64,000 nt of DNA. Source: Pseudoglutamicibacter cumminsii. Its GTDB lineage: Bacteria > Actinomycetota > Actinomycetes > Actinomycetales > Micrococcaceae. The stretch's first letter is position 1, and every line of letters starts with the position of its first letter. The notes beneath the pieces are model-generated. The model was given only the letters and a program-made list of their open reading frames with translations, was not told where the DNA came from and ran no database searches. The stretch is from NCBI RefSeq assembly GCF_016907775.1, contig NZ_JAFBCO010000001.1, positions 1,860,001-1,924,000 on the forward strand, read 5' to 3'. The translations under genes were made by a program, and so were the position numbers. Shown here in pieces: positions 56,796 through 59,747 of this stretch.

Positions 56796-58559
<1,764 letters not shown>

Positions 58560-58621
58560 TTAGCTCCTGTAGACAACGTAGGTGCAACGGCCGGGCGCGA
58601 AAGTTTCCGCAACAAAAGACT

Positions 58622-58709
58622 CCGCGACGAGATTCGGCCGAAACGTTGATCTACAACGTGCCTACCGAGCATGATTGCTCAGGTTCAGGACTCTGGCATC
58701 TCGTCGCGG
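58622..58709 (-). promoter_or_regulatory. leuA attenuator: 12-bp inverted repeat and nested hairpins
   Basis: On the transcript, CCGCGACGAGAT (58709-58698, inside the leader peptide codons) is exactly complementary to ATCTCGTCGCGG (58633-58622), which is followed by AGTCTTTT. Between them lie GAGC-n6-GCTC and ACGTTG-n4-CAACGT. Ribosome stalling at the leucine codons just upstream would block the long pairing, so leucine supply can decide the structure. Confidence 0.75.
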
Positions 58710-58741
58710 CAAGCAAGAAGAAGCATGCGCACCGTGATCAT
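58685..58741 (-). CDS. leuA leader peptide with three consecutive Leu codons
   Basis: ATG at 58741 opens MITVRMLLLACRDEMPES followed by TGA at 58687-58685. Codons 7-9 are CTT CTT CTT. A -10 box TAGGTT lies 7 bases before the ATG, so translation begins at the mRNA 5' end. It lies 128 bases upstream of leuA. Leucine leader peptides before leuA are known in actinobacteria. Confidence 0.75.
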   Translation of the reverse strand: MITVRMLLLACRDEMPES

Positions 58742-58748
58742 GTTTACA

Positions 58749-58754
58749 AACCTA
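58749..58754 (-). promoter_or_regulatory. -10 box TAGGTT for the leu leader transcript
   Basis: TAGGTT on the minus strand, 7 bases before the leader peptide ATG. Confidence 0.5.
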
Positions 58755-58817
58755 ACACTCGCCTCAAGTGCGTCGCATATTCATGACGAAACAGCGTTAG
58801 AACCCGAAGCGATCCCT

Positions 58818-59747
58818 TTAGAAGCCGAAACGATCTAGGTGTCGGGCGTCGCGCTGCCAGTCCTTGGCGACCTTAACCCGGATGTCGAGGTAGACCTTGG
58901 TTCCGAGCATCGCTTCGATCGAGCGGCGGGCGCGTTGCCCAACGTCGCGCAACCGCGAGCCACGCTTTCCGATCACGATGGCCTTCTGCGAGTCGCGCTC
59001 AACGTACAGCGTCGCGTAGATGTCGGTCAGCGGGTTGTCTTCGGGGCGGTCTTCGCGCGGTTCCATCTCTTCGATGGTCACAGTCAGGGAGTGCGGAAGT
59101 TCCTCGCGGACACCCTCAAGAGCCGCTTCGCGAATGAACTCCGAAACGAGCTTGAGCTCAGGCTGGTCCGTGACATCGCCGTCAGGATACAGCGGCGGAG
59201 AAACCGGCATGTGTTCAGCCATTACGTTTTCAAGCGCGTCAAGCTGTTCGCCCTTAACCGCGGAGACAGGCACGATGTCCTTGAAACCGCCGGGCAACAG
59301 CTCGTCCCCCATCGCCTGGACCTCGAGCAAGTGGTTCGCGACCCTCGCCTTGTCAACCGTGTCAGTCTTAGTCACGATCGCGATGACCGGCGTGCGCTTA
59401 ACCTTGGCGAGCTGTTCAACGATGAACCGATCCCCCGGTCCTACAGCCTGATTTGCGGGCGTGCAGAAACCGATGACATCGACTTCCCGCAAAGTGTCTT
59501 CAACAAGGTTGTTGAGCCGGTGCCCCAACAACGTCCGCGGGCGGTGAATACCCGGAGTATCAACCAGGATGAGTTGAAAATTCTCGCGATGGACAACACC
59601 GCGGATCGTGTGCCGGGTTGTCTGTGGCTTATTCGACGTGATCGCGATCTTCTGCCCCACCAACGCGTTAGTCAGCGTCGACTTTCCTGCATTAGGGCGG
59701 CCAACAAGGGAAATAAAACCTGCGCGGAAATCGGAACTTGAAGTCAT
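58818..59747 (-). CDS. era: GTPase Era
   Basis: A 309-residue GTPase acting in 16S rRNA processing and 30S assembly. G motifs: GRPNAGKST (G1), PQTTRHTIRG (G2), DTPG (G3), TKTD (G4), SAVKG (G5). The C-terminal KH domain appears as IVIGKRGSRLRDVGQRARRSIE. It overlaps nothing; corC ends one base upstream. Confidence 0.96.
   Translation of the reverse strand: MTSSSDFRAGFISLVGRPNAGKSTLTNALVGQKIAITSNKPQTTRHTIRGVVHRENFQLILVDTPGIHRPRTLLGHRLNNLVEDTLREVDVIGFCTPANQAVGPGDRFIVEQLAKVKRTPVIAIVTKTDTVDKARVANHLLEVQAMGDELLPGGFKDIVPVSAVKGEQLDALENVMAEHMPVSPPLYPDGDVTDQPELKLVSEFIREAALEGVREELPHSLTVTIEEMEPREDRPEDNPLTDIYATLYVERDSQKAIVIGKRGSRLRDVGQRARRSIEAMLGTKVYLDIRVKVAKDWQRDARHLDRFGF

Follow-up and report, generated by a model that had tools for sequence, protein, structure and literature searches.

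In Actinobacteria, a regulatory element upstream of leuA has been described under the name LEU element, in which a leader with a run of leucine codons is accompanied by a pseudoknot downstream of these codons (Seliverstov et al. 2005, PMC1262725). Translation of the leader was judged an unlikely sensor in that study, which proposed a binding protein instead and left the mechanism open (PMC1262725), its judgement resting on mutations in the leuA leader of Streptomyces coelicolor that were recounted as having effects inconsistent with classical attenuation (Craster 1999, as told in PMC1262725). Short leuL leaders with leucine runs are also reported before leuA in S. lividans and Corynebacterium (PMC8079986, PMC4046766, PMC5784534), with no start site assigned to the leuL of C. 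diphtheriae. The S. lividans leuL1, MRFGLLLLSCRGEGL, is reported to be transcribed as a leaderless RNA with no typical Rho-independent terminator (PMC8079986). In addition, a ribosome-protected ORF is reported before leuA in Mycobacterium abscessus (PMC4974804). Across these sources, comparable leuA leaders are known from Streptomyces, Corynebacterium and Mycobacterium (PMC1262725, PMC8079986, PMC4046766, PMC5784534, PMC4974804). Two neighbouring types of leaderless attenuator are also known: the mycobacterial polycysteine attenuators, in which downstream genes are controlled by a short ORF containing consecutive copies of the sensed codon (Canestrari 2020, described in PMC9031893), and the ilvBNC attenuator of C. 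glutamicum, whose leaderless leader peptide works through a transcription terminator hairpin (PMC11857589).

Here, we analysed a leader located in a 64,000-nt stretch of the Pseudoglutamicibacter cumminsii genome (hereafter the window, meaning this whole stretch), for which a first-pass annotation had proposed a leucine attenuator. On the minus strand of the window, leuA (56796-58556, GTG start at 58556) encodes a 2-isopropylmalate synthase of 586 amino acids, as identified with Pfam and NCBIfam. Directly upstream lies leuL (58685-58741, minus strand), a predicted leaderless ORF of 18 codons, MITVRMLLLACRDEMPES, whose ATG at 58741 follows a predicted promoter -10 box, TAGGTT (58749-58754), after a spacer of 7 nt (TGTAAAC). 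The sensor codons CTT CTT CTT occupy positions 58723-58715 of the same strand, and both this run and the spacing of the -10 box from the leader start could be read from the sequence as the annotation had claimed. A repeat search likewise bore out its statement that leader codons form one arm of a perfect 12-base inverted repeat, hereafter helix P1, of which the 5' arm CCGCGACGAGAT (58698-58709, minus strand) lies within the leader ORF and the 3' arm ATCTCGTCGCGG at 58622-58633. These arms of 12 nt each are 100% complementary, are separated by 64 nt enclosing a small hairpin (recovered by the repeat search and the MFE fold, and also announced by the annotation), and the second arm is directly followed by AGTCTTTT. 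A second helix, P2, would join CGGCCG at 58635-58640, directly 5' of the P1 3' arm, to CGGCCG at 58588-58593, these two strands forming the best contiguous helix between the two segments in the window copy (L002 among the loci below). With its short leader holding a leucine run directly upstream of leuA, this feature is a leuA copy of the actinobacterial LEU element (Seliverstov 2005), and neither the element nor its leaderless leader is new to the literature. The presentation of the locus as a distinctive new version of attenuation is thus not supported, as the element was published in 2005 and a leaderless leuL is already in print.

A second small ORF of 20 codons was also observed at 58615-58553 (minus strand), with a TTG start shortly after GGAG and a TGA overlapping the GTG start of leuA; the same ORF is open in P. 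cumminsii L003. It could reflect translational coupling to leuA, or chance.

To describe the relatives of this element, upstream DNA was taken from 136 leuA loci, numbered with L, of which five duplicates were removed (L001, L032, L033, L037, L117). A strict filter recovered the leader and the P1 helix before leuA in 124 of the 131 non-duplicate regions, amounting to 108 distinct sequences, and rejected seven for P1 (L017, L024, L036, L067, L083, L135, L136), among which L083 is an incomplete region while L067 and L136 do show an element that was rejected by the leucine filter. At the leuA loci L017, L024, L036 and L135, two different anchors found no LEU element. L118 and L134 were dropped as badly anchored, as was L115 in later counts, including the set of 105 distinct sequences. 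In most relatives, a short ORF is present in which the leucine run precedes x-(C/R)-R and then residues that vary. Three genomes of the genus encode LeuA proteins with 95-98% identity to that of the window.

The annotation had put forward covariation of the paired arms as its check, and the arms do covary in relatives: in an alignment of 45 sequences (row L018 being kept despite a misaligned arm 2), P1 comprises 11 pairs, 7 of them with two-sided changes, and 96.4% of the cells are paired. P2, which joins the segment 5' of arm 2 to the segment 3' of it, displays two-sided changes in 5 of 6 pairs, with only 71.7% of the cells paired. The joint covariation score of P1 and P2 was matched by none of 500 shuffles and every slid version scored lower; on one other covariation measure, that of further pair types, 3 of 500 shuffles did as well and slide -3 did better. 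RNAalifold alone predicted P1, with 10 pairs of which 6 had two-sided changes. Pairing energies of own against swapped strands, compared in 135 elements (129 leuA and 6 leuC), gave z scores of 16.0 for P1 and 5.1 for P2 (uncorrected for relatedness, as are all those below), the position of P2 being searched freely. Since P1 and P2 cross, they define a pseudoknot. No helix besides P1 was revealed by a fixed-column covariation scan of 87 rows, in which P2, floating in position, was not prominent. Pairing, folding and fixed-column analyses left out loci with uncertain gene starts (L049, L094, L123, L125-L129, L148, L183, L195) as well as short tails.

The geometry of the leader is conserved together with its structure. 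A TAnnnT motif precedes an in-frame ATG or GTG by 6-9 nt in 103 of the 105 distinct relatives, the other frames yielding 1/105 and 0/105. In the window, this promoter spacing would place the transcription start at the A of the leader ATG, and the leader is probably translated from its very first base; a scan of 58500-58850 returned no full sigma-70-type promoter, the -35 side being weak and without a match. The last leucine codon is CTT in 90 of the 105 leaders, and CTT represents 107 of the 3995 leucine codons in the leuA sequence of the same loci (some with the gene start only). From this last codon to P1 there are 5 nt in 137 of 145 elements and 2 nt in 8 (leuA, a few leuC and one leuB), in an anchoring that demanded leucine codons no more than 18 nt away, and in all 145 the leader stop lies upstream of arm 2. 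That stalling would free the downstream arm, as the annotation had supposed, is doubtful: the helix begins 5 nt after the last leucine codon in those 137 elements but 11 or 14 nt after the first one of the run in 136 of the 145, so that, given the size of the ribosome footprint, stalling on the first codon would keep most of the upstream arm free.

The leader most likely reads leucine supply. We hold, with moderate confidence, that it is sensed by the ribosome, leuA being open when the ribosome is stalled and its start being closed by the P1/P2 pseudoknot when leucine is replete. A ribosome would start at the 5' end of the RNA, on the leader ATG; where leucine is scarce, it would halt on the rare CUU codons and cover the first half of the leader, which is the complement of the leuA ribosome-binding site and start codon, so that leuA would stay open. 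Where leucine is plentiful, the ribosome would instead read through P1, reach the stop codon within the P1 loop and leave; the freed RNA would then fold into the P1/P2 pseudoknot, bringing the 5' half of the leader to the leuA start and closing the gene. At the sequence level, this explanation builds on the leader, the leaderless promoter geometry, P1 and P2 as established by covariation, the lack of an intrinsic terminator and the target-dependent sensor codons; from them we infer that the ribosome stalls, in which direction the switch works and that the output is translational.

In the window, the duplex between the leader and the leuA start would be made of two parts: TCACGGT (58737-58731) is the perfect complement of ACCGTGA (58553-58559, minus strand), which contains the leuA start codon, and GCTTCT (58724-58719) can pair, with one G-U, with the leuA Shine-Dalgarno sequence AGGAGC (58563-58568, minus strand). 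Its energy is -18.0 kcal/mol, a value also reached in 2.6% of cases when the leader is shuffled and in 2.9% when the target is. Given the size of its footprint, a ribosome halted on the leucine codons would cover both leader segments of this duplex. Among relatives, for which loci without a leaderless start were further dropped, pairing of the leader 5' half with its own rather than a swapped leuA start reached a z of 4.5 (n=131), with 2.9 in the window's family and 1.5-1.6 in the other groups; the controls gave -1.1 with promoter DNA and 2.6 for leader-to-ORF pairing. The native duplex outperformed 95% of its shuffles in only 16 of 131 cases when the leader was shuffled, and in 27 of 131 when the target was. 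The base stem, in which the leucine codons pair with the Shine-Dalgarno sequence, reached a z of 4.0 when pooled and of about 2 in each of the two other groups, but vanished in the window's family (-0.1). The control pairings of arm 1 and arm 2 with the Shine-Dalgarno sequence attained 4.2 and 4.0, so that a z of about 4 by itself is no proof. Shuffling the leucine segment produced no significant change of predicted accessibility in any group, these family groups having been labelled by hand for the pairing and accessibility analyses. Pairing with the Shine-Dalgarno sequence was near zero for the P1 loop (z 0.2) and inconsistent for the P2 5' strand (1.8 and -0.7 in two analyses). The connection between the leader and the leuA start is weakly supported by these pairings; the output probably lies in access to that start, and not in termination.

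A different use of the ribosome signal, which we consider rather unlikely, would involve either Rho-dependent termination or a pseudoknot that represents the ON state. In the latter case, a stall on the first leucine codon would let P1 and P2 form, and a ribosome at the stop codon would cover arm 1 while the P2 3' strand or other RNA closes the leuA start. The spacing of the first leucine codon (11 or 14 nt from P1 in those 136 elements) is compatible with this reading, and the stop begins at most 8 nt after arm 1 in 103 of 145. However, it begins at least 11 nt beyond arm 1 in the 42 others, where a ribosome would hardly cover the arm. In constrained folds, the mean openness of the Shine-Dalgarno sequence was higher in the 'stall' state (0.58) than in the 'stop' (0.47) and 'free' (0.42) states, which also fits the direction of our main reading, but the constraint itself raises accessibility. 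Pairing of the P2 3' region with the Shine-Dalgarno sequence reached a z of 2.7 in one analysis and 0.7 in the other.

Classical transcription attenuation, in which P1 would act as terminator or anti-terminator and stalling on the leucine codons would prevent termination, appears improbable. The leader peptide, its leucine codons and the P1 arm within the leader are all compatible with it, and AGTCTTTT follows arm 2 in Pseudoglutamicibacter sequences (L002-L005, L032), which is the arrangement that the first-pass annotation had taken for a terminator. By contrast, a run of at least 4 T occurs within 12 nt after the helix in only 6 of the 105 distinct sequences, so that AGTCTTTT does not represent a conserved U-tract, the P1 loop of these relatives measures anywhere between 13 and 82 nt, and a scan of 58500-58850 detected no intrinsic terminator, on which grounds we rejected an intrinsic terminator between the leader and leuA. 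The S. lividans leuL1 is also reported to be without a typical one (PMC8079986). The interpretation that accompanied the locus is therefore partly supported: a leucine-linked leader-peptide attenuator, probably leaderless, is upheld, but its terminator is not.

To delineate the range of the element, a covariance model, R1, was built from 45 rows, none of them from Pseudoglutamicibacter. R1 scored the window copy at 44.2 bits (E 1.3e-6), the next best place in the genome reaching 17.6 bits, and thus revealed no second element there. This genome has one LeuC and one LeuB locus, and no leucine-run leader of this kind was found in the 350 nt before either. R1 matched 287 of 296 sampled genomes of the class, many of them with two or three matches. 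In a sample of the phylum, 15 of 119 genomes matched, 10 in the class and 5 outside, the kinship of 84 unmatched genomes not being listed. Four of the five outside matches were weak (E above 8e-4). The other, at G500:C191:4069-4164 (minus strand), was strong (E 1.7e-8) and belongs to a genome assigned outside the class, which may reflect transfer or misassignment. Widespread as it is in the class, the element has no relevant family in Rfam 15, which returned only two chance-level matches to unrelated families for the window region and ten other loci.

In genomes with several copies, the extra R1 matches that were retrieved precede further leuA, leuC and leuB genes (genes located by tblastn; reference LeuB, IlvE and LeuC identified by Pfam and NCBIfam). 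In a Microbacteriaceae-like family, LEU elements precede leuC at L176-L180, L192 and L196-L225; the element was present at 28 of 30 leuC loci (L196-L225), which were the best 30 of 60 LeuC matches, with matches in 57 of 60 genomes. In another family, 30 loci encoding LeuB or a paralog were examined, of which 9 hold a copy, in 2 cases on the strand opposite to leuB. Elements before leuB, mostly before leuB-ilvE, are found at L181, L183, L231, L233, L238, L240, L242, L244, L285-L287, L290, L299, L302, L307, L309-L314, L317 and L320. Within the fetched stretch, ilvE, encoding an aminotransferase for valine, leucine and isoleucine, lies downstream of leuB for 18 of the 20 distinct leuB leaders. 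Furthermore, two copies in family f22 (L318, L321) precede a stand-alone protein with a LeuA_dimer domain (Pfam PF08502), their leaders reading ILVV and LVLVV. Six further matches have no leuA, leuB or leuC downstream (L305, L308, L318, L322, L323, L324). Among these, L305 is a LEU-like element before a short ORF, L308 (G286:C277:1940-2035, minus strand) has a leader broken by TGA before the leucine run and is apparently a decayed LEU element, and L322-L324 are probably chance matches.

The leader codons of these copies match the end product, being leucine for leuA and leuC and valine, leucine or isoleucine for leuB-ilvE. The leuB leaders carry valine, leucine and isoleucine codons in place of the leucine run (e.g. 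MRQVLVLITCRGGA and MRSVLVLIDRRGEA), and each of the 20 distinct leaders has valine or isoleucine among the three codons preceding the spacer codon. This count omits L321, L316 and L319, where another gene lies between the element and leuB; the last two are weak LEU-like matches before a transcriptional-regulator-like ORF followed by leuB, and their leader frame does not fit. At the same three codons, valine or isoleucine appears in 0 of 33 leuC leaders and in 1 of 16 further leuA leaders of multi-copy genomes. It is likewise absent from all 138 leuA leaders chosen with the leucine filter, a result that is partly built in, as the leuA anchoring demanded leucine codons next to the helix (two adjacent ones in one variant, another also allowing isoleucine before leucine). 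When the count was repeated with P1 and a leaderless start but no leucine filter, valine or isoleucine was seen in 2 of 135 leuA leaders (L067 and L136, both LVL) and 0 of 6 leuC leaders; 13 leuA regions, one of them incomplete, fail this leucine-free anchor. This weakens one figure but leaves our assessment as it was. Since the model that detected the leuB leaders had been trained on leuA elements, any bias would be toward leucine. Lineage alone does not explain the difference in codons either, since the genomes G217, G163, G328, G259, G275, G074 and G037 contain leaders of both types. A leaderless start is less evident for the leuB copies: of 20 distinct leaders, 13 have TAnnnT 6-9 nt before a start (at 9 nt in nine of them), and 7 show none within 5-9 nt; the latter may have a few bases of 5' UTR.

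We regard this exchange of codons according to target as the strongest argument for reading of the leader by the ribosome. It also weighs against the LEU element being the site of a regulatory protein (orthologs of ML1624) with the leader peptide incidental, as argued in 2005 from mutants and phylogenetic pattern (Seliverstov 2005, PMC1262725): sensor codons that follow the target, a conserved leaderless start and a conserved spacing between codons and P1 would be needless for one protein, and we find this proposal very improbable. Least credible is a leucine riboswitch, or else an unrelated structural RNA in which an ORF is present by chance, since, for all the compactness of the pseudoknot and the possibility of an undescribed class left by the absence of relevant Rfam 15 families, the consensus has in our reading few conserved unpaired positions, whereas reading frame, codon position and codon identity are conserved.

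Beyond ribosome sensing at leuA, we consider it likely that the LEU element is a modular sensor, in which a leaderless or near-leaderless pseudoknot chassis is retained and only the 3-4 codons ahead of the helix are swapped according to the target, with leucine runs for leuA and leuC and valine, leucine and isoleucine codons for leuB-ilvE and the stand-alone LeuA_dimer (allosteric-domain) protein. If true, the 2005 question of what reads leucine would be settled in favour of the ribosome, and leuC, leuB-ilvE and the LeuA_dimer protein would be additions to the candidate regulon. The exchange of sensor codons between targets within the same genomes would provide a direct and cheap test of ribosome sensing. 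The open-access literature that we searched yielded no mention of LEU elements before leuB or leuC; the wider target set and the sensor-codon exchange are what is new here, and both lie outside the window.

Compared with the LEU element of Seliverstov 2005, the window copy has the same place before leuA, a leader with a leucine run and a pseudoknot just 3' of the leucine codons, a likeness drawn at the level of overall architecture. The base stem of the LEU element, between the leucine codons and the leuA Shine-Dalgarno sequence, is weak in the window (6 pairs with one G-U), where it is joined by another stem, of 7 pairs, formed by leader codons 2-4 with the start codon of leuA. Loop 1 is long in the window (64 nt), unlike that of the element of 2005. 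The leuL of S. lividans is leaderless by report, whereas leaderless initiation in the window is predicted from its sequence. The polycysteine attenuators share with the window a leaderless start and a run of the sensed codon, but theirs is cysteine and they serve other operons. Finally, the ilvBNC attenuator of C. glutamicum and the window element, the latter by prediction, are both leaderless leaders of branched-chain amino acid genes, with a terminator hairpin seen only in ilvBNC.
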